Positions 25,677 to 40,067 of a stretch of 64,000 bases of DNA are shown one piece after another; positions within the stretch are counted from its first letter, which is position 1, and the number at the start of each line of letters is the position of its first letter. The notes beneath the pieces are model-generated. The model saw only the letters and a program-made list of their open reading frames with translations. It was not told the DNA's origin and ran no database searches. Source of the stretch: Schizochytrium sp. TIO01 (lineage: Eukaryota; Sar; Bigyra; Thraustochytrida; Thraustochytriidae). Location: positions 4,432,845 through 4,496,844 of the forward strand of contig SMSO01000014.1 of assembly GCA_004764695.1 (NCBI GenBank), given 5' to 3'. Both the position numbers and the translations under genes were made by a program.

Positions 25677-27554
25677 TCATGATGGTGAATTGCGAAGTTT
25701 CTGGCGGCACTGGTGTAGGCAGGCACTTGTTTCCGCAATATCTGGGTGATGGATTTCCAGTGTCTCGATTTGTAGATTTGATGCCTGCTGGAAATAATCA
25801 ATAGCTTCAGACCAGAAGCCCTGATCACTATATACCAAACCAATATTATGAAGAGTTTTTGCTACAAGAGGATGGTGCGGGCCGTATGCTTGCTTGAAAA
25901 TATCCATGGCATTTTTGAAGTAGGTTATTGCGTCTTCGTAAGAGCCTTCCTTACGAAGCACATTTCCAATATTGTTGAATGCAAGAGCAACATCAGGGTG
26001 GTCGGGGCCATAGGAGGCTTCTGTGATGGTCTTGGCTTCCTCAAAGAGTTTGCGAGCATCTTCATAACGGTCTTGTGCTTGATAAATAAAAGCAATATTA
26101 TTGAGCGTTTCTGCAATGCTGACATCGTCTTCGTTTAAAACCTCTTGACGAATGACAAGTGCCTCTGAGAAGTTCTGTAAAGCTTCTTCATAATCTTGGC
26201 GAGCGGAGAGGAGATGCCCAATGTTATTTAAAGTCGAAGCTACCTTAGCATCTTTCGGACCCAAGGTGTCCCGAACAATTCCCAGAGCTTCCTCATAGTG
26301 TGCTAGTGCCTCATCAAGCTCACCAAGAGACTCATAGGCACCACCTATATTATTTAGTGTGTTGGCAATATATTCATGTTCTGGTCCTACACTGTCTTGA
26401 AGGAGCTTAAGGGCCTCGTCGTATAGCTGCAGTGCGTCATGGTAATAGCCTTGTCTTTGACGAAGGTAGCCTGTTTGTGAAAATACTTGAGCTACATAAA
26501 CTTCGTCAGAGCCATCCTTTTGCGCTTTAGAAATTGCATCACGACCCACTTGCACGAACCAGCTACAGACTTGATCGGTGATGATCTCGTTAAGAACATT
26601 AAATCCTCCACCTATGGATCGCTCAATTGCAAAGTCAATCATCTCTTTATCATCAGGTTTCCTGCATTGAGCTTTACGCATGTCTGGGTAATTTGTGCAA
26701 ACCTTGTAAACCACCTCTGCATCATCAAGCAGCTGTTTTAGGTATTTTTCTTCCTGGCCCGGGGCTAGAAGCGCTTGCATAGGTTGGGTGCTTGTTGTGG
26801 CTCCATAGATCTCCCAAACACACCAAGCCCTTCCGAGTGGGGCAGGTGCATCCCACTGGTTAATCAATATCAATGAACCATCAAATCGAGCTATGGCTTC
26901 ACGTAAACCCTCGGTCAGGATTTCTTCCCGCAAGCCCTGAATATCAGGCCTAGGCCTTTCTGAGCTTGTTAAAAGAACCTGATTTGAGCAAAAAACGTCA
27001 AGCCAGATAAACTGGGCTTCGAGATGCAGGGCTCTCTCCTCGGCGTAGTCTACTAAAGCTTGGACAAGGTCAGCAAATCGGCACTCATGAGCATGGCTAA
27101 GATAGAGGCCCTCATAAGCTTCGCCAATGTCGTCGTGCGGGATAAGCTTTGTATAGAACTGCTCTCCTTGCTCAAGCCCTGTAGTCGCTGGCAGCACAAT
27201 AAATTGTGTGATGTCCTCTGTTGTCCAGTCTTCACGAGGCTTCTCTTGAGCATCTTCACATGTAAAAATCACCACATCTCCGGTATAGGCAACACGTCCT
27301 TCAAACCTATCGTCAAACTCCTTGACAAGTTTGATCGTTCTGCCTTGTTTCACAGAGGCATCAATGTCTCTTGTAGCCACAAAGAGTCGCACGCCTGGTG
27401 CTAGAAGGTCCTCCTGCACCTCCACGAGAAATCTGCGTAGAAAACTCACGCTTACGCCTTCGTATCGTACCAGAGACCTCTCCACATCTTCAACACTTGG
27501 CGCAATCTTTGACGCACTAAAAAAGCTCCCGCTCTTGCGTCTTGCCACCTGCAT
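25677..27554 (-). CDS. TPR protein with TIR-like N-terminal region (kinesin light chain-type repeats)
   Basis: 625 residues, intronless, ATG 27554, TGA 25679-25677. Residues of about 30-260 form an alpha/beta region with FIWLDVFCSNQ, then SLILINQWDAPAPLGRAWC and VWEIYGA. The pair 'W/L-D-x-F-C-x-N-Q' and 'P-L-x-R-A-W-C-x-W-E' is common in TPR proteins of protists and algae that carry a TIR/SEFIR-like fold; I know of no proven reaction for it. From about residue 355 to 610 there are six 42-residue TPRs of kinesin light chain type (A-x-T-L-N-N-I-G, Y-x-x-A-L, GPxHP), ordered and regular. These form a right-handed superhelix for protein binding. It lies about 2.9 kb from the LRR-kinase gene on the same strand. 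A sensor or scaffold role is inference. Confidence 0.8.
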   Translation of the reverse strand: MQVARRKSGSFFSASKIAPSVEDVERSLVRYEGVSVSFLRRFLVEVQEDLLAPGVRLFVATRDIDASVKQGRTIKLVKEFDDRFEGRVAYTGDVVIFTCEDAQEKPREDWTTEDITQFIVLPATTGLEQGEQFYTKLIPHDDIGEAYEGLYLSHAHECRFADLVQALVDYAEERALHLEAQFIWLDVFCSNQVLLTSSERPRPDIQGLREEILTEGLREAIARFDGSLILINQWDAPAPLGRAWCVWEIYGATTSTQPMQALLAPGQEEKYLKQLLDDAEVVYKVCTNYPDMRKAQCRKPDDKEMIDFAIERSIGGGFNVLNEIITDQVCSWFVQVGRDAISKAQKDGSDEVYVAQVFSQTGYLRQRQGYYHDALQLYDEALKLLQDSVGPEHEYIANTLNNIGGAYESLGELDEALAHYEEALGIVRDTLGPKDAKVASTLNNIGHLLSARQDYEEALQNFSEALVIRQEVLNEDDVSIAETLNNIAFIYQAQDRYEDARKLFEEAKTITEASYGPDHPDVALAFNNIGNVLRKEGSYEDAITYFKNAMDIFKQAYGPHHPLVAKTLHNIGLVYSDQGFWSEAIDYFQQASNLQIETLEIHHPDIAETSACLHQCRQKLRNSPS

Positions 27555-28974
27555 CGTGGCTACACCGATCGATATCTAAGCACCCACCAGCCCAACTTGT
27601 CCTCGAAGCCCAGTCGTTGTGTCTTGTTGCCAACGTCAATTTCTGGTTTGTTGCACTCTCGGACGCTCCCCCGCTCGTTGCTATGCCCCTGCGAGCTTTC
27701 CAGCAATAAATTGCCACATGTAGTACTGCTCTCTTGATTTATACCTGAGGCTTTTTTTCGAGCACGGTGGTGTCTAGATCACTGCCCCTACTAGTACTCA
27801 GACTCAGGACTGCCTGAAGTTGGAATATGGTAGTACTAGAAGAGAAATTGTAATTGCGTAAAAAATGACTGGAAGTAGTCCGATTCTGGTATTTCTATCA
27901 CAAGCGCACACGTATCGCACACCTTCCTCTGAAAGAGGGAGGTCTCGAGAGACCGCTGGAACAAGTATTGATCGGTACATCATTATTTAGTTGATTTTCT
28001 GTCAACTGGTATCAACCAGAGTATGGAGGATAAATCAGCAAAGACACGCGTGAGTATTGTAGAGGAGCCTGACTTGCAATTGAAACTCATCCTCGTTTTG
28101 TTTTGATGAAAAAATGAGTTCGAGCTTCTGTGACCTGAGAAATGAGGAACGCAGACGATAAAATATCTTTGCTTAGTAGAACCGAACGCTTTCATCTTTG
28201 TGAAATCAAACACTTTTTGGTATTAATAGGTGAGGTTATGGTTGTTGATGGACCAATGATGATATTTCCGGCTTCTGAAGCTCCGGTAATATTGGTAAAT
28301 CGGCATGTGCAGAGCATTTACGTGGCCAAACATGTATTATTGATGACCTAGACAGCCATAATGACTGCATTGAAGTCCTCATTACCCAAAACTTTATTGT
28401 AAGACAGTTTTGCCATGTTACCTTTTTTTGAAAATCTTGCTCAAGTTGGATACCATGTTGACTTTAGCTGCTTGGATGGGTGCTGAAGAGAATGTACGTA
28501 CCTTTTGAATCACTGCAGGTCAAACTCGGCGATTCTAATGTGATCTGATTTTCCAATGTCCACGCCCTCTGCTGAGACCTCTGTCAAGTACAATGCGGTT
28601 GCGCACTCCCCAATGTCGTATGCACTGTAGTGCTCATGATTAATGTGCATCTGTACAGACATATGAGCAATAAAAACAAGCAAATTGCTCGAAGCGTTAG
28701 AATAACTTTTAGAAGAAAGAACTGAAAAGACGCCACGTTTGCTCACTTCTAAGTCAGCCTACTATGGCGAAAAATTTATCCCGAGTGAAGCCTTGCCATA
28801 TAACACACTCTGTTTCTGGGCAGACGTTTTTGTACAGTTCAAAGTGCTAAAGCTATTCTCTGGCAGCTAGAGGTCGACTGGGAATATTTCAAAGAGAAAC
28901 TCTAAAGCTTACGCATTCCTTTGCCAGTTGTACACAAGCGACTCGATAAAATGAATTGAACATTGATTCATCTA
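27555..28974. other. Intergenic, no supported gene
   Basis: 1.4 kb upstream of the TPR gene, ending where similarity to the LRR-kinase gene begins. A 78-codon minus-strand frame at 28,510-28,746 has no motif or codon bias. No RNA gene seen. Confidence 0.45.
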
Positions 28975-30170
28975 TCTAAATCTAGTGCCGATGATATCAG
29001 ATGGAAGAGGTTGTGGAAGCTGTGGTCCTATTACATCTTGAAAACTTCAGTCTTGAATGTTTTCATCTCAGTACGAACACAGACGCTCCGCACATATCTC
29101 ACGAACTTGCTCAAACGAACCAGGGGAAGATGGATCTTAACCACGTTTTCGTTTGCAGGTGTTTACAGGAACGTAGCAATCATTCTTTGAGTTATATATC
29201 TAAGCACAAAAGAGGTTTCCACATTCCACCGCACAGCATCCTTCAAATCGATTGAGACAATTATCGCTGGTAAAACAACATGCATTTAGAATCCCCTCTT
29301 GGGCATGCATCAAATTCCGCTGCGCGTCACGAACCAGTCCATCTGCTTTTCAAACTTCTTTCATTCGCCGTCGGAATTTTTGTTCGGCCGAATAGCTGTT
29401 CTAATTTCTAATTTTATCTTCGCATTTAACAAAAGATAATTCAGATTGTTCGGGACAAGGCAAATAGTCTCTCAACCCGTGATTCCTTCATCGCACCCAC
29501 GCTCCACACGCACACCATTGTTTCATCGCAGGTTACAAAGATGGAAGACTATCGTTGCGCAGCAGCTTCTACGGATTCAATAATACAGTCTCGGCATGAA
29601 AGCTGTCCCTTCTCACAGCTTGTGCCTTTAGAAATCGTCATCTTCTTCTTATACACAAGGCATTTCTCTTCAGGATTAACAGCAGCTCCAAAAGATTCGC
29701 GCTGAATTGCTCACGAGCACTCAGACGCTGACCAGGGTTTTGAGCTTTCAACGTTTTGATGAGTTTCTGGATTGAACCGTTTGGCGCAGAGTACAGGTCC
29801 TCTACGACCACACCTACGGAGTACATATCCATTGCAGTTTCGAACTTTGTCACACGGCGATCCCGCAAGTCGGGAGCAATGTACCGAGGTGTTGCCCGTA
29901 ATCTGCGACTTTAATACCATCGAACTTTTTTACCAAGCAAGGCTGTCCAATTACTTGTAAGGAATATGTTCTCGGGCTGGATATTACATTGCACAATGCT
30001 GTGCAAGGTAGAATTGCGATACTAACAAGTAAGCCATGTTGAGTCTATTGCCAGATATTTTGCTTTCGTTGATTTGTGAATCCACTTTGCCAAGTCGCCT
30101 TGCTCGTCTGGAGATTTCATATTCAAAAATCCCGCAGTTCTATGATTCCATATCAACAATATACTACTGG
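28975..30170 (-). pseudogene. Degenerate partial copy of the neighbouring kinase-RING gene
   Basis: The segment is collinear with the 3' part of the next gene (about 30,440-31,700), from the kinase C-lobe to the stop. Best preserved is 29,560-29,920: FETAMDMYSVGVV then EDLYSAPNGSIQKLIKTLKA reads almost as in the parent, followed by a frame loss where the RING should start. The IBR part (29,080-29,290) is recognisable only by scattered identity: the Cys codons, TTCCACATTCCAC and similar words. Many substitutions and indels break every frame. The kinase N-lobe and LRRs are absent. It sits directly downstream of the intact gene in the same orientation, so it looks like an old tandem duplicate. 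Confidence 0.75.
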
Positions 30171-30422: not shown

Positions 30423-33096
30423 TTATTTCAATCGACTTAACCTAAACCTAGTGCCTACCACTCCAGATTTTAGCAGTGGTTTGAGCTGCTCTCGCAGAGT
30501 ATTTGGAAGACCTCTGTCCTTAACATTCTCATTCCAGTACTTAACAAGACGATCTGCGCGCAGCTCATCCCACGCCTCTCGAACCTGCTCGAATGAGTCA
30601 GGGAAATACGGATCTTTACAACGTCGTTTTGAGCAAGTTCTCACATGTTCATGACAAGCTTCACCGTTTTGTGAACTAAACGATAGACACCAAGCACAAA
30701 AGTGATGTCCACATTCGCGATTTCCACATTTCACAGCACAACAATCATCAAATCGATCAATGCAAAAATGACAGCTCGGGCAGAACACATTAAAGATTTT
30801 CTCCTGTATGTGCTGTAGATGACGCTGTACATCGCGACTCTGTCCATCCATCTGTACAAGATCTGCCACGCGCCTTTGAATTTCTTGTTCAGTTCTAATT
30901 GCTGCTTCACTTTCTGCTTTCCTCTTCGCAATCACCAAGAGATGATTCAGCGCCTTAGGCGCAAGCCGAATGATCGCTTGACCCGTGATTCTTCCAGCAC
31001 ACTCATGCTCCATGCATTTCATCGTTCCATCACCGCCAACAAATACGGAAGTCTGTGGTTGCGTGGCAGCTTCTACGGATTTTGCAATACAGCATCGGCA
31101 CAGAAAGTGTCCCTTCTCACAGCTTGTGCCCTCAGAAGCCAGAATCTCCTCCATACACACATGGCATTTCTCTTCAGGATCAACAGCAGCTCCGAATGCT
31201 TCGTGACAAAGTGCTTCACGAGCACTCAGACGCTGAGCAGGATTTTGCGCTTTCAACGTTTTGATGAGTTTCTGAATTGAACTGTTTGGCACAGGATACA
31301 GGTCCTCTAAGACCACACCCACGGAGTACATGTCCATTGCAGTTTCGAACTTTGACACACGGCCGTCCCGCAACTCGGGAGCAATGTACCGAGGCGTTGC
31401 CTGAAATGAGGTGTACGTTGCAGTGCAATTTGCTATCTTGATGCCATCGAAATCCCCAAGCAAGGGTGTCCCATTGCTTGTAAGAAATATGTTCTCGGGT
31501 TTGATATCACAGTGCACGATGCCGTGCAAATGTAGAGCTGCCATGCCATAAAGAAGGCCCATGGCGAGTCGATCGCGAGATGCTTTGCCTTCATTAGGAT
31601 GTTCCTGGATCCACTTTGCCAAGTCGCCATGCTCGTAATAAGGCATGACGATACAACCCCATGGCATTCCATGCATAGTGTCTACAAAAGCACCAGTAAT
31701 TCGAATCACGTTCTGTGACACCACGTTTCCCATTTTAGCGACTTGTTTGTAGAACGCCTTGGAATTACTTGCATGTCCGAGTTGAAACTGTTTCAAAACC
31801 AAAGTTCTGCCGTCGTTATCAAGAACTCGTTGTACTTTTTTGCCGCCTCTCGAGGCCAGCGGCTCGCCAACAGACTTGAAGTCCATAATTTTGATATTCG
31901 GCAGCCACAGATCAGCACAGGCCACTTCAAGAACACCTGCTGCACTCACATGTATACTTTTAAGCCAGTTTTGATCTTGCAATAGCTCTGGATAATGTTC
32001 TTTTGCGAGATGCAGTGTTTCAGCAAGCTTATGACGAAAGGCTTTACTCAGCTCGATAGGGGTGCCTTGAGAGAGGATGGATTCCATTTTCTTGACTCGA
32101 CCTCTGTAATGCTTCCTATCTTTCTCCTCTAAACCTTCTGACTCAAGCTCTTCCTTAGCTCTTTTCAAACTCCCCATTGCATTACTGGAACGAGTCAGTT
32201 TATCGTATAAATCTCGAAGTGATTGGACGTTGGGCGTATTTGAGCCCAAACGTAGATATTCGTCCAATTCTTGAATGTCTTTTGACACAAGTACTGCGTT
32301 TAACATGATATTTTCAGAGTAGCGTTCGAAACGGTTGAATGCCGAGCTCATTGTGCGAAGTATTTCTGATACTTGACCACTGAAAGTGTCTTTCTGAAGG
32401 ACTTCAAACTCTTCAAGGAGAGCATTTTTAAGCTCTAAGAGTTCTGGTTCTAGCTTCACAGCCTTTTCAGGTGCCCCGAGGGCAAGTGAAAATGTATCCC
32501 CAAGCTGTAATTCATTCATTCTATAGACAATTCTTTCAGCAGCTTCTTGGCGTCGCTGTCCAATGTTGTTTGGCCAGGTATCCGGGTTTAGGTTGTACTC
32601 ATCAATGCATTTGTTGACTCGAACAACGAGCTCTTCACAGTATCTGACATCATCTGCGCGTGGCTCATCTTCAATGACTGGTGTGACGTTTATGTCCAGA
32701 TATTCTAATAATCTTGCAAGTTTAGATTTGAATTTGTCTACTGTATCCCCATCAAATTCGTGGTTGTTAGCGCGAACGTCTTGCACAAGCGATTGTAGAT
32801 GACTCCTTTCAGCATTCCGCTGCTTAATGAGATCAGGCAAGCCATCCGAAGAGCTTCCGCGAATCTGGTCCTGAAGGGCGTCTATTCGTTGTTTGGAGTT
32901 CTGGATGCCACTGGAAGCTATCCGCAATTTCATGTGGCCAAAGTATCCCTGGATCGCTGGCCCTTTGAACTCCTCAAGTAACGTAATGCCGATCTGAAGG
33001 GAGTCTCCTCTGGCTCCGCCTCGGTTCACACGCAAGTTGTAGATTGCTTGCGCAAGTTGCACCACATCGGCGAAACTCACGCTATCCGATTGTGTT
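30423..33096 (-). CDS. Last exon of the LRR gene: helical region, kinase, RING/IBR
   Basis: Single 2,674-nt exon after a cttcag acceptor. Residue numbers are for the full protein. Residues 540-920 are mostly helical with heptad-like charged stretches and no known fold. The kinase has a candidate VAIK lysine in TLVLKQF (about 952), a catalytic loop HCDIKPENI (1045-1053; Cys replaces the Arg of HRD), a metal-binding motif written DFD instead of DFG (1065-1067), and RYIAPEL for the APE end. The Lys and both key Asp are present, so activity is possible. Then comes a RING-like set, CHVCMEEI with EKGHFLCRCC (about 1161-1186), and a second set, FCPSCHFCIDRFDDCC then GHHFCAWC (1288-1320), like IBR/RING2 of RBR ubiquitin ligases. 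The RBR label rests on Cys/His spacing only. Confidence 0.85.
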
Positions 33097-36000
33097 CTGA
33101 AGCAGAAACGTGAATGAGTGAGTGAGCGAAGATAGCATCACCAGCATTATCAGCACCATTAGTACGAGATAAACAAGTTAGTTGAACAATTCTTGCAAGA
33201 AAGAGTCCCCCAGCTCTTGAAAGAACATTGACCACCAAAACAAAACATATATGCCTGAAACTTACGGAGACCCATCTAAATCGTGTGCTATCGCAACAAA
33301 TTCAACGCCATCATCAGCAACGACGGTATTGTTGTCATTGACACTATCGACGTTTTCCTGCTCATTGCTGCGCTCTGCAGAACCCCCGCTTACCACATTT
33401 ATTGAGTCGCAGGATTTGGTATCTGAGGCATTGATGTCCTCTCCAGGGAAACATACCTTAGCGAACAGCTCTTCAGGAGTCAAACTAACAGAACTATTAA
33501 AACTGTGACACGTGGAAAATTAGAAAAGCAAACAAAGCCCTCGTTAGATCAACGATGATTGTGTGCGATGAAGCTGCCATGAAACTGCATGGAAACTCAG
33601 AAAGCTACGAATGTAAGCCCTTGCGCTAGTTGGTTGAAGCAATGGAGCAAACAGAACTTACTAGATTTGAACAAAAGGGCAGGTCTTGTGCAGAGACTTT
33701 GCGACAGCCTTAGCTCCATTATCGCTAATCTTGTCCCCACGAAGACTGTGAGTAGTAATAAGTAATAAGATCATTCGTAGTGATTACGATGCAACGTCAG
33801 TCAAATGGTTAGCCATCGAGCACTCTCTCTTTCTCAGACTGAAAATCGCAGAATTGCAGGAGACTTCCTGCTTCTGTGTTCCTTCGCTAATCGAATCCAG
33901 AGCCTAACATCCATTCTCTCATTGCAATACGATGTGCTTGAGTTCGCTTTCAGTTCTGCTTTACCCTGTTCAAGTGCTACAATTCGACTTTAGTAAACGA
34001 AGGGCTTGGCGAAAGTTATCAACAATGGTTTCTCTAATTCTCTGCTTCATCGAACAAGAAACAGCCTGAAAACCCTTTCTTGTGGATTTTTAAAACGTAC
34101 TCTAAATATATCAGGTTCTTGCATTCCGCAATTCCCTTTGCGATGGCCTTTCCACCCTCATCGCCAAACTTGCTCTCACTAAGACTGCGAATAATAATAA
34201 GAAATAAGATCATTCGTAGTGATTACGATGCAACGTCAGTCAATTAGTCAGCCATCGAGCACTCTCTCTTTCTCAGACTGAAAATCGCAGAATTGCAGGA
34301 GACTTCCTGCTTCTGTGTTCCTTCGCTAATCGAATCCAGAGCCTAACATCCATTCTCTCATTGCATTGCGACGTGCTTGAGTTCGTTTTCAGTTCTGCTT
34401 TATTCTGTTCAAGTGCTACAATTCGACTTTAGTAAACGAAGGGCTTGGCGAAAGGTAACAACGATGGTTTCTCTAATTCTCTGCTTCATCATACAAGAAA
34501 CAGCCTGAAAACCCTTTCTTGTGGATTTTTAAAACGTACTCTAAACGTGTCAGGTTCTTGCATTCCGCAATTCCCTTTGCGATGGCCTTTCCACCCTCAT
34601 CGCCAAACTTGTTCCCACCAAGACTGCGAATAATAATAAGTAATAAGATCATTCGTAGTGATTACGATGCAACGTCAGTCAATTAGTCAGCCATCGAGCA
34701 CTCTCTCTTTCTCAGACTGAAAATCGCAGAATTGCAGGAGACTTCCTGCTTCTGTGTTCCTTCGCTAATCGAATCCAGAGCCTAACATCCATTCTCTCAT
34801 TGCAATACGATGTGCTTGAGTTCGCTTTCAGTTCTGCTTTACCCTGTTCAAGTGCTACAATTCGACTTTAGTAAACGAAGGGCTTGGCGAAAGTTATCAA
34901 CAATGGTTTCTCTAATTCTCTGCTTCATCGAACAAGAAACAGCCTGAGAACCCTTTCTTGTGGATTTTTAAAACGTACGTTAAACGAGTCAGGTTCTTGC
35001 ATTCCGCAATTCCCTTTGCGATGGCCTTTCCACCCTCATCGCCAAACTTGCTCTCACTAAGACTGCGAATAATAATAAGAAATAAGATCATTCGTAGTGA
35101 TTACGATGCAACGTCAGTCAATTAGTCAGCCATCGAGCACTCTCTCTTTCTCAAACTGAAAATCGCAGAATTGCAGCAGACTTCCTGCTTCTGTGTTCCT
35201 TCGCTAATCGAATCCAGAGCCTAACATCCATTCTCTCATTGCATTGCGACGTGCTTGAGTTCGTTTTCAGTTCTGCTTTATCCTGTTCAAGTGCTACAAT
35301 TCGACTCTAGTAAACGAGGAGGGCTTGGCGAAAGGTAACAACGATGGTTTCTCTAATTCTCTGCTTCATCGAACAAGAAACAGCCTGAAAACCCTTTCTT
35401 GTGGATTTTTAAAACGTACTCTAAATATGTCAGGTTCTTGCATTCCGCAATTCCCTTTGCGATGGCCTTTGTGCCCTCATCGCCAAAGTTGTTCCAACTA
35501 AGACTGCGAATAATAATAAGTAATCAGATCATTCGTAGTGATTACGATGCAACGTCAGTCACTTAGTCAGCCATCGAGCACTCTCTCTTTCTCAAACGGA
35601 AAATCGCAGAATTGCAGAAGACTTCCTGCTTCTGTGTTCCTTCGCTAATCGAATCCAGAGCCTAACATCCATTCTCTCATTGCATTGCGACGTGCTTGAG
35701 TTCGTGTTCAGTTCTGCTTTATTCTGTTCAAGTGCTACAATTCGACTCTAGTAAACGAAGGGCTTGGCAAAAGGTATCAACAATGGTTTCTCTAATTCTC
35801 TGCTTCATCGAACAAGAAACAGCCTGAAAACCCTTTCTTGTGGATTTTTAAAACGTACGTTAAATGTGTCAGGTTCTTGCATTCCGCAATTCCCTTTGCG
35901 ATGGCCTTTCCATCCTCATCGCCAAAGTTGTTCTCACTAAGACTGCGAATAATAATAAGTAATAAGATCATTCGATGCAACGTCAGTCAAATAGTTAGCC

Positions 36001-39000
36001 ATTAAGCACTCTCTCTTTCTCAGACTGAAAATCGCAGAATTGCAGGAGACTTCCTGCTTCCGTGTTCCCACGCTAAACGAATCCAGAGCCTAACATCCAT
36101 TCTCTCATTGCAATGCGACGTGCTTGAGTTCGTTTTCAGTTCTGCTTTATCCTGTTCAAGTGCTACAATTCGACTCTAGTAAACGAAGGGCTTGGCGAAA
36201 GGTAACAACGATGGTTTCTCTAATTCTCTGCTTCATCGAACAAGAAACAGCCTGAAAACCCTTTCTTGTGGATTTTTAAAACGTACTCTAAATGTGTCAG
36301 GTTCTTGCATTCCGCAATTCCCTTTGCGATGGCCTTTCCACCCTCATCGCCAAAGTTGTTCTCACTAAGACTGCGAATAATAATAAGTAATAAGATCATT
36401 CGATGCAACGTCAGTCAAATAGTTAGCCATTAAGCACTCTCTCTTTCTCAGACTGAAAATCGCAGAATTGCAGGAGACTTCCTGCTTCTGTGTTCCTTCG
36501 CTAATCGAATCCAGAGCCTAACATCCATTCTCTCATTGCATTGCGACGTGCTTGAGTTCGTTTTCAGTTCTGCTTTATCCTGTTCAAGTGCTACAATTCG
36601 ACTTTAGTAAACGAAGGGCTTGGCGAAAGGTAACAACGATGGTTTCTCTTATTCTCTGCTTCATCGAACAAGAAACAGCCTAAAAACCCTTTCTTGTGGA
36701 TTTTTAAAACGTACGTTAAACGAGTCAGGTTCTTGCATTCCGCAATTCCCTTTGCGATGGCCTTTCCACCCTCATCGCCAAACTTGTCACGAGTAAGACT
36801 GCGAATAATAATAAGAAATAAGATCATTCGTAGTGATTACGATGCAACGTCAGTCAATTAGTTAGCCATCGAGCACTCTCTCTTTCTCAGACTGAAAATC
36901 GCAGAATTGCAGGAGACTTCCTGCTTCCGTGTTCCCTCGCTAATCGAATCCAGAGCCTAACATCCATTCTCTCATTGCATTGCGACGTGCTTGAGTTCGT
37001 GTTCAGTTCTGCTTTATCCTGTTCAAGTGCTACAATTCGACTCTAGTAAACGAAGGGCTTGACGAAAGGTAACAACGATGGTTTCTCTAATTTTCTGCTT
37101 TATCATACAAGAAACAGCCTGAAAACCCTTTCTTGTGGATTTTTAAAACGTACCCTAAAAATGTCAGGTTTTTGCATTCCGCAATTCCCTTTGCGATGGC
37201 CTTTCCCCCCTCATCCCCAAAGATGTTCCCACCAAGACTGCGAATAATAATAAGAAATAAGATCATTCGTAGTGATTACGATGCAACGTCAGTCACTTAG
37301 TCAGCCATCGAGCACTCTCTCTTTCTCAAACTGAAAATCGCAGAATTGCAGGAGACTTCCTGCTTCTGTGTTCCTTCGCTAATCGAATCCAGAGCCTAAC
37401 ATCCATTCTCTCATTGCATTGCGACGTGCTTGAGTTCGTGTTCTGCTTTATTCTGTTCAAGTGCTACAATTCGACTCTAGTAAACGAAGGGCTTGGCGAA
37501 AGGTAACAACGATGGTTTCTCTAATTCTCTGCTTCATCGAACAAGAAACAGCCTGAAAACCCTTTCTTGTGGATTTTTAAAACGTACTATAAAAATGTCA
37601 GGTTTTTGCATTCCGCAATTCCCTTTGCGATGGCCTTTCCCCCCTCATCCCCAAAGATGTTCCCACCAAGACTGCGAATAATAATAAGAAATAAGATCAT
37701 TCGTAGTGATTACGATGCAACGTCAGTCAATTAGTTAGCCATCGAGCACTCTCTCTTTCTCAAACTGAAAATCGCAGAATTGCAGGAGACTTCCTGCTTC
37801 TGTGTTCCTTCGCTAATCGAATCCAGAGCCTAACATCCATTCTCTCATTGCATTGCGACGTGCTTGAGTTCGTTTTCAGTCCTGCTTTATTCTGTTCAAG
37901 TGCTACAATTCGACTCTAGTAAACGAAGGGCTTGGCAAAAGGTATCAACAATGGTTTCTCTAATTCTCTGCTTCATCGAACAAGAAACAGCCTGAAAACC
38001 CTTTCTTGTGGATTTTTAAAACGTACGTTAAATGTGTCATGTTCTTGCATTCCGCAATTCCCTTTGCGATGGCCTTTCCACCCTCATCGCCAAACTTGTT
38101 CCAACCAAGACTGCGAATAATAGTAAGTAATAAGATCATTCGTAGTGATTACGATGCAACGTCAGTCAATTAGTCAGCCATCGAGCACTCTCTCTTTCTC
38201 AAACTGAAAATCGCAGGATTGCAGGAGACTTCCTGCTTCTGTGTTCCTTCGCTAATCGAATCCAGAGCCTAACATCCATTCTCTCATTGCATTGCGACTT
38301 GTTTGCTTTCATTTTTAGTTTTGCTTTATTCTGTTCAAATTCTACAATTTGAACATAGTTACAGGAGGGCTTTGCAAAAGGTATCAACAATGGTTTCTCT
38401 AGTTTTTTGCTTCACGGAACAAGAACCAACTGGAAAACCCTTATTTGTGGGTCAAAATAACGTACGTTAAACGTGTCAGGTTCTTGCATTCCGCAATTCC
38501 CTTTGCGATGGCCTTTCCACCCTCATCGCCAAACTTGTTCCCACCAAGACTGCGAATAATAATAAGTAATAAGATCATTCGTAGTGATTACGATGCAACG
38601 TCAGTCAATTAGTCAGCCATCGAGCACTCTCTCTTTCTCAAACTGAAAATCGCAGGATTGCAGAAGACTTCCTGCTTCTATGTTCCCTCGCTAATCGAAT
38701 CCAGAGCCTAACAACCATTCTCTCATTGCAATGCGATGTGCTTGAGTTCGTGTTCAGTTCTGCTTTATCCTGTTCAAGTGCTACAATTCGACTCTAGTAA
38801 GAGGAGGGCTTGGCGAAAGGTATCAACAATGGTTTCTCTTATTCTCTGCTTCATCATACAAGAAACAGCCTGAAAACCCTTTCTTGTGGATTTTTAAAAC
38901 GTACTCTAAATGTGTCAGGTTCTTGCATTCCGCAATTCCCTTTGCGATGGCCTTTCCACCCTCATCGCCAAACTTGTTCCCACCAAGACTGCGAATAATA

Positions 39001-40067
39001 ATAAGTAATAAGATCATTCGTAGTGATTACGATGCAACGTCAGTCAATTAGTCAGCCATCGAGCACTCTCTCTTTCTCAAACTGAAAATCGCAGGATTGC
39101 AGAAGACTTCCTGCTTCTATGTTCCCTCGCTAATCGAATCCAGAGCCTAACATCCATTCTCTCATTGCCATTACGACTTGCTAGCGTTCGCTTTCAGTTC
39201 TGCTTTATCCTGTTCAAGTGTTACAATTCGACTTTAGTAAACGAAGGGCTTGGCAAAAGGTATCAACAATGGTTTCTCTTATTCTCTGCTTCATCGAACA
39301 AGAAACAGCCTGAAAACCCTTTCTTGTGGATTTTTAAAACGTACTCTAAATGTGTCATGTTCTTGCATTCCGCAATTCCCTTTGCGATGGCCTTTCCACC
39401 CTCATCGCCAAACTTGTTCCAACTAAGACTGCGAATAATAATAAGAAATAAGATCATTCGTAGTGATTACGATGCAACGTCAGTCAATTAGTCAGCCATC
39501 GAGCACTCTCTCTTTCTCAAACTGAAAATCGCAGAATTGCAGGAGACTTCCTGCTTCTGTGTTCCTTCGCTAAACGAATCCAGAGCCTAACATCCATTCT
39601 CTCATGCCCTTACGACGTGCTAGCGTTCGTTTTCAGTTCTGCTTTATCCTGTTCAAGCGCTACAATTCGACTTTAGTAAACGAAGGGCTTGGCGAAAGGT
39701 ATCAACGATGGTTTCTCTAATTCTCTGTTTCATCGAACAAGAAACAGCTTGAAAACCTTTTATTGTGGATTTTAAAAACGTACGTTAAGTTTGTCAGGTT
39801 CTCGCATTTTTTCAGGGACTTTGCAATTGCCTTTGCGGTATTTGGACCGATGCGCTGGTTGCTAAGACTGTGTTTGTTGAGTTTTCAAGTATATATCATT
39901 TCCAACTTCATCAGTACCGATCCAAAACTCTTCTACTACAAGGCTTGCATTCTTGAACACATTAATAACGCCAATGCCTCCTGCTGTCTCCTCTTTTTGC
40001 CACCGCGCACTTACTCAATCTCCGTCGTATCTTTACTGATGTCCTTAACCTTGCGTGCTACACTCAT
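30423..40067 (-). CDS. LRR - protein kinase - RING/IBR protein, 18 coding exons
   Basis: Model on the minus strand: start exon 40067-40015 (ATG, MSVARKVKDI); fifteen 84-nt LRR exons between 39867 and 33662; linker exon 33502-33266; last exon 33096-30423 (TAG/TAA-type stop at 30423). Coding lengths 53 + 15x84 + 237 + 2674 = 4,224 nt, exactly 1,407 residues plus stop. Every internal junction has the same phase (two bases, then one), with donors gtacgt or gtaag and acceptors ending cag. Predicted order: short N-terminus, 15 ribonuclease-inhibitor-type LRRs (about residues 19-438), acidic linker, helical region (520-920), kinase (930-1150), two zinc modules (1160-1340), basic tail. There is no signal peptide or membrane span, so it is probably cytosolic. 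The combination suggests a receptor-like sensor coupled to phosphorylation and ubiquitin transfer; that role is inference. I found no other gene start inside. Confidence 0.8.
33662..39867 (-). repeat. Tandem array of 15 one-exon LRR units, about 439 bp each
   Basis: LRR exons in coding order: 39867-39784, 39428-39345, 38988-38905, 38549-38466, 38110-38027, 37671-37588, 37237-37154, 36798-36715, 36370-36287, 35942-35859, 35503-35420, 35062-34979, 34623-34540, 34184-34101, 33745-33662. Each is 84 nt and encodes one 28-residue repeat with core NxFGDEGGKAIAKGIAEC then KNLTxL. Start-to-start distances are 428-441 bp, mostly 439. The roughly 350-nt introns are nearly as conserved as the exons, including donor gtacgttttaaa and acceptor ttattattcgcag. 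The two end exons are diverged (LSNQRIGPNTAKAIAKSL; LRGDKISDNGAKAVAKSL), as expected for an array that grows in the middle. Confidence 0.92.

Follow-up and report, generated by a model that had tools for sequence, protein, structure and literature searches.

A tandem array of single-exon leucine-rich repeats in a kinase-RING-like gene family varies mostly at its exposed codons

RESULTS

A gene with one exon for each leucine-rich repeat

We analyzed a 64,000-nt stretch of DNA, called the window here (C13:4432845-4496844), from a genome of 64.06 Mb in 37 contigs. A short rRNA pattern located four SSU sites in this genome. Of five thraustochytrid primers, RA1, RA2 and RA3 match exactly and FA2 matches with two mismatches, and FA1 had no match within five mismatches in the 3,020 bases compared; we read the SSU as stramenopile-like. 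On the minus strand of the window lies a predicted gene whose every exon we modeled from splice signals and reading frame (Table 1). The full model has 18 exons and 17 introns, and its joined coding sequence of 4,224 nt has a sole stop codon at its end. The predicted protein of 1,407 aa comprises leucine-rich repeats (LRRs), a linker, a kinase domain and a RING-like cysteine-rich end.

Table 1. Features of the gene and its downstream neighbor, in window positions
Feature	Position	Strand	Remarks
Proposed first coding exon	40015..40067	-	53 nt, ATG...GA/GTAAGT, phase-2 end, MSVARKVKDISKDTTEI-; putative
LRR exon 1, diverged N-terminal cap repeat	39784..39867	-	LSNQRIGPNTAKAIAKSLKKCENLTNL; splice signals and frame
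13 inner LRR exons, 84 nt each, near-identical introns	34101..39428	-	TRF, splice signals, frame
Starts of inner LRR exons, each running 84 nt downwards	39428, 38988, 38549, 38110, 37671, 37237, 36798, 36370, 35942, 35503, 35062, 34623, 34184	-	
LRR exon 15, diverged C-terminal cap repeat	33662..33745	-	LRGDKISDNGAKAVAKSLHKTCPFVQI; splice signals and frame
Linker exon, 237 nt, phase 2 on both sides	33266..33502	-	putative
Last exon: N-terminal region, protein kinase domain, C-terminal cysteine-rich RING-like region	30423..33096	-	partly Pfam; exon putative
Degenerate second kinase/cysteine-rich tail, three pieces	28975..30105	-	42-60% identity; directly downstream of the gene

An earlier note on this DNA had described 15 exons of exactly 84 nt with one LRR each. 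We found exactly that between 39867 and 33662: 15/15 segments are open stretches of 84 nt flanked by AG and GT, and each encodes one 28-residue LRR. The note's units of about 439 bp with near-identical introns hold for the 13 inner units, where the mean pairwise intron difference is 0.056; TRF reports a tandem repeat with a period of 439 bp, 13.9 copies and 93% matches. However, LRR exons 1 and 15 are diverged caps, and exon-to-exon spacing in the array ranges from 428 to 441 bp. The 14 introns inside the array are 344 to 357 nt long, all of the form GTACGT...CAG, and retention of any single one brings an in-frame stop within 42 codons (14/14). The arrays of relatives finish with the same cap type as LRR exon 15, and the first ~50 residues of the linker exon are matched in many relatives. 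Farther along the same strand, a 632-aa open reading frame (window 25677-27575) resembles tandem TPR repeats by eye.

The note had also stated that all junctions share one phase, so that adding, losing or skipping a unit is neutral for the frame. This was borne out, with phase 2 at all 17 introns of the model. Exons of 84 nt with phase-2 junctions make any skip frame neutral, and the array might therefore serve as a splicing pool from which each transcript or cell would draw its own subset of LRR exons, so that one gene would yield many receptors. Such splice variants are reported for brown algal ROCO genes (PMC11378527) and for human NLRP3 (PMC6642158). However, the inner units hardly differ in their splice signals, which give no hint that exons are chosen under regulation or exclude one another, and the cap exons fit constitutive inclusion. 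We therefore regard a splicing pool as rather unlikely.

Predicted domains of the protein

The LRR part matches Pfam LRR_6 (PF13516; E=4e-86, 12 stretches), and we read the 28-residue repeats as RI-type LRRs. A predicted kinase (Pkinase, PF00069; E=4.6e-30) covers residues 434-612 of P0001, numbered from window position 33134. It has the kinase motif HCDIKPEN, and DFD stands where the motif DFG would be. The N-terminal region of the last exon had no Pfam match. No Pfam RING family reached its cutoff in the protein, while a 12-member profile had matches to RNF4 structures (1.8e-4) and to Ariadne-1 (0.023). Neither ROC and COR domains nor NACHT/NB-ARC were listed by Pfam in the tail or LRR part at E<=0.01. 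We therefore rejected the gene as a member of the ROCO or NLR family, whose defining domains are absent from the Pfam list for these two parts. The highest 19-residue hydrophobicity mean in the model is 1.32; because a strongly hydrophobic stretch is absent, the product is probably a soluble recognition protein, as judged from its sequence.

Relatives of the cysteine-rich tail were also sought in viral contigs; 38 pattern matches gave 0 confirmed relatives in a search from which records near the own genome were possibly excluded.

The window gene is a divergent copy within an expanded gene family

The kinase/cysteine-rich tail has at least 51 matches in its own genome, counting the window gene and its broken neighbor. 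At least 28 of these, the window gene among them, span 770 or more of the 903 residues; the remaining 27 long matches are 53 to 62% identical to the window gene's tail. We examined 20 loci (L009-L028), which take in part of the tail matches listed. Both the tail and LRR exons of the window type were present in 18/20, the tail being absent from the stretch examined at L011 and L027. A search of the 20 loci and the window with an exon model gave 190 exon-like matches, which take in other LRR families and near-duplicate loci. Of these, 171/190 were open segments of 84 nt flanked by AG and GT, a count that is partly circular because the model was trained on such exons from the same loci. The 19 misses include cuts at locus ends, one exon matched twice, exons with insertions and shifted exons. 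We see the window gene as a divergent representative of this expanded family. A chance repeat was rejected as an explanation of the array on the grounds of the splice signals, the open frame and the gene family.

A divergent relative, L031, has tail pieces that are 32 to 42% identical. Its LRR exons gave 14 matches, 13 of them with 84 nt between AG and GT, yet their sequences are unlike one another. It thus appears that repeats have long had one exon each and that units became near-identical only recently.

Several relatives have stops or shifted exons and a broken tail copy adjoins the window gene, as would be expected if the locus were a decaying or silent gene. However, the window copy has intact splice signals at all 18 exons and no internal stop in its 1,407 codons, and we consider decay very unlikely.

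We also observed other LRR exons in this genome. A second, KENR-type family (..KENRSLTSL) has 84-nt exons in units of mostly about 355 to 409 bp, on the minus strand at L022, L017 and L018 and on the plus strand at L019, L023 and L037; codons 2 and 3 are variable there too. A further array lies at L035 (181-2631, minus strand; C5:1634000 on), with a unit of about 357 bp (..GCQALAKSLEHCQNLTTL) and 84 nt between AG and GT in 6/8 matches. At L027 a lone LRR exon (4813; C6:1113721 on) has both splice signals, and the 10 kb examined there held 0 further exon matches and 0 tail matches. Several members of the window gene's family lie near contig ends, e.g., at C24:458, C35:2708734, C32:2889857, C13:4232 and C13:15243, which may point to a subtelomeric bias.

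Units differ chiefly at exposed codons

Codons 25, 26, 28, 2 and 3 of the 84-nt exon are the x positions of LxxLxLxxN, on the exposed face of the strand. Among the 13 inner units of the window, nucleotide columns vary at 11/14 exposed sites, at 11/70 other exon sites and at 78/358 intron sites. The exposed columns differ from the introns (Fisher P=1.7e-5), whereas the exon body does not (P=0.33). The five exposed codons rank first among the 28 shifts of a five-codon set. When all 98,280 five-codon sets are scored, as few as 0.012% score as high in the window (13 units) and 0.004% in 55 units of nine loci. The variation extends beyond these five codons, because codons 4, 5 and 24 also vary in the window and codons 5 and 8 in the nine loci. 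Across 91 exons of 20 loci, a set that contains near-duplicate loci, entropy is raised at codons 2, 3, 26 and 28, peaks again at 5, 8 and 25, and is low across most other exon positions, many silent ones included.

We then compared nonsynonymous divergence at the exposed codons with two yardsticks, in simple quotients rather than a fitted omega or a PAML site model. Relative to intron divergence, exposed-codon dN is 7 to 19 in six young arrays (L009, L010, L012, L016, L017 and L018), 6.4 in the window and 3.3 in both L020 and the KENR array of L022. In older arrays it is 1.4 (L013) and 1.1 (L028), and the excess is gone. In the six young arrays, body dN is 1.0 to 2.4 times and body dS 1.7 to 3.8 times the intron divergence; therefore, the introns are unusually conserved or converted and make a generous yardstick. 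With exon-body dS as the yardstick, the quotient for exposed-codon dN is 3.7 to 5.7 for the six young arrays and 5.0 for the window. The window values of dN and dS come from 11/13 inner units, as a residue-24 filter removed two, while the column counts used 13/13.

Thus, the units differ in amino acids chiefly at the exposed positions of the beta strand, and exon bodies and introns are nearly uniform. This pattern agrees with diversifying selection that acts on a binding face within a homogenized scaffold. It bears on neutral drift of a tandem repeat, by which the array would have expanded like a minisatellite, with repeat number tolerated and the binding face unselected. Neutral drift would account for units that are near-identical, introns included, and for the block duplications in L020 and L028. 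However, the exposed codons vary above the levels of intron and body while the helix part is fixed, and this makes neutral drift very unlikely.

Gain, loss and exchange of units

The earlier note had proposed that the array is a device for changing copy number by recombination. Evidence for this came from the family and does not reach the window array. Starting at the last LRR exon, 4,650 nt are the same in L024 and L025. The three units of L024 before that exon match three L025 units at 99.8, 98.6 and 99.3%, and L024 is without one whole exon-intron unit that L025 has directly before the last exon. The comparison spans only part of the array, as L024 begins at a contig end. L025 also lies near a contig end, and L026 is its 99.93% twin. 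Decay or assembly error may thus explain the difference, because of the contig ends and of exons with G/T runs whose frame is uncertain.

We also asked how alike units are within and between loci, using 55/97 units from nine loci chosen for alignable introns. The 55 introns differ by 0.039 within loci and by 0.044 between loci. The nearest neighbor of an intron is in the same locus for 21.9/55 (ties shared; 6.7 at random), and for about 33 it is therefore elsewhere. Tails could be compared in 21/36 locus pairs, L009 and L011 being without a full tail. In 21/21 of these pairs, the introns are on average more alike than the fourfold sites of the tails. The same holds for the fourfold sites of the exon body in 18/21, and the three exceptions all involve L021. 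The intron and fourfold-site comparisons exclude L023, L024 and L026. Interlocus exchange together with local homogenization is the best explanation for the likeness of arrays between loci; constraint on the array sequence is an alternative. For the window introns, no match of at least 70% of their length was found in the other loci examined. Interlocus exchange is thus supported for the recent subfamily and not for the window gene, whose array is a private unit type.

Source of the variation at exposed codons

The concentrated variation could also come from targeted mutation of the exposed codons, either hypermutation or templated rewriting. Variation is high in six adjacent nucleotides after TCTT, with flanks on both sides that hardly change across contigs, and 57 distinct hexamers occur at the variable site in 86 exons. 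In some LRR exons of L017 (6439), L024, L025 and L026, a G/T-run insertion sits exactly at the variable codons after TCTTGGTGGG, which is a further point for targeting; the lengths of these runs differ between gene copies.

However, the codons are fixed by position for many residues. Gly at codon 2 is GGT in 18/19, and at codon 3 Asn is AAC in 11/11, Glu is GAG in 8/8 and Ser is AGC in 7/7. For Gly at codon 3, by contrast, each of the four codons occurs, with GGG in 13/20. Between loci, pairs with the same residue share the codon in 274/361 cases at codon 2 and in 188/321 at codon 3, where tail codon usage predicts 117 and 113. These codon counts, like that of the hexamers, exclude L023 and L026, near-duplicates of L022 and L025. 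In same-residue pairs the silent difference per site over the five codons is 0.053, near that of introns (0.043) and below that of the exon body (0.114), although such pairs are enriched for identity by descent, which weakens the test. Quiet silent sites speak against random rewriting, because rewriting should scramble them. Position-specific codons and quiet silent sites therefore favor selection on residues and re-use of variants. With the same caveat on common descent, hypermutation was rejected as the main cause, and targeted mutation in any form is, in our judgment, extremely unlikely. A bolder form of the idea is that a dedicated process, somatic or germline, rewrites the exposed codons on a homogenized cassette array, giving a single-celled eukaryote an inducible repertoire with units traded between chromosomes. 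We give it hardly more credence.

DISCUSSION

The initial observation of a uniform array was right but understated. Beyond it, the array belongs to a genome-wide family and its variation lies mostly at codons of the concave face. The copy-number mechanism suggested earlier is plausible and is partly evidenced in relatives. In the family, units appear to behave as modules that are gained, lost and exchanged, with strongly variable contact residues. We think it probable that the window gene is an LRR-kinase-RING-like recognition gene whose arrays grow, shrink and homogenize while their concave residues are selected to differ.

Unequal exchange and gene conversion would make the arrays grow, shrink and become homogeneous. 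Homogenization would proceed within one locus, as for the private unit type of the window, and in the recent subfamily between loci as well. Selection would maintain the differences at the concave contact residues. We propose that the LRR face may bind a variable partner, such as a pathogen, a virus or a self marker. The least supported step is what would follow binding, namely, a predicted signal through the kinase and/or E3 activity. As the variable contact codons stand against introns that differ by a few percent, the source of the variation is directly testable.

Several known systems share parts of this design. Plant LRR receptor kinases join an LRR sensor to a kinase, as the window gene does, with LRRs of a different class. 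Unlike them, the window model is without a strongly hydrophobic span and has a RING-like tail. Vertebrate NLRs are NACHT-type proteins in which several LRR exons are 84 bp long, and we know of none with a homogenized LRR array. LRR exons of human NLRs are reported to be modular, and vertebrate NLRs resemble the window gene in their modular RI-type LRR exons and frame-neutral skipping (PMC6642158). Our literature search, which covered few subscription papers, found no description of the window gene's family and no single-exon LRRs in thraustochytrids.

The earlier note knew of no protist array of comparable uniformity in a gene of this kind, and this view has to be given up in light of precedents in Tetrahymena (PMC6564038) and brown algae (PMC11378527). 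Tetrahymena has tens of thousands of 90-bp phase-2 LRR exons in thousands of genes, with an exon-intron unit of about 347 bp in T. thermophila; its arrays show recent clonal expansions, ectopic recombination between genes and a retrotransposon link, and its LRR genes are reported to be mostly under purifying selection (PMC6564038). The two systems are alike in tandem phase-2 LRR exons of equal length and in a characteristic unit length. They differ in that the exons here are 84 nt long, tail matches number in the dozens and concave-site variation is strong.

The brown algal LRR-ROCO genes have tandem 72-bp phase-2 LRR exons with splice variants and exon shuffling, show positive selection at four concave sites (14, 16, 18 and 19) and are proposed immune receptors (PMC11378527, which cites Zambounis et al. 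2012 on these genes). By the LxxLxLxxN register, these sites seem to us to be codons 26, 28, 2 and 3 of the window exons. Thus, the two share one exon per LRR, tandem arrangement, phase 2 and diversification at concave sites. The algal genes have 72-bp exons and a ROC-COR GTPase tail where the window gene has 84-nt exons and a kinase and RING-like tail, and of the two, alternative splicing of LRR exons is reported for the algal genes only. Phase-2 arrays with one exon per LRR are therefore known in brown algae and ciliates, and what is new here is the 84-nt repeat with a kinase-RING-like tail. That another genome has modular LRR exons suggests that such exons have been used repeatedly to make recognition proteins that change quickly.
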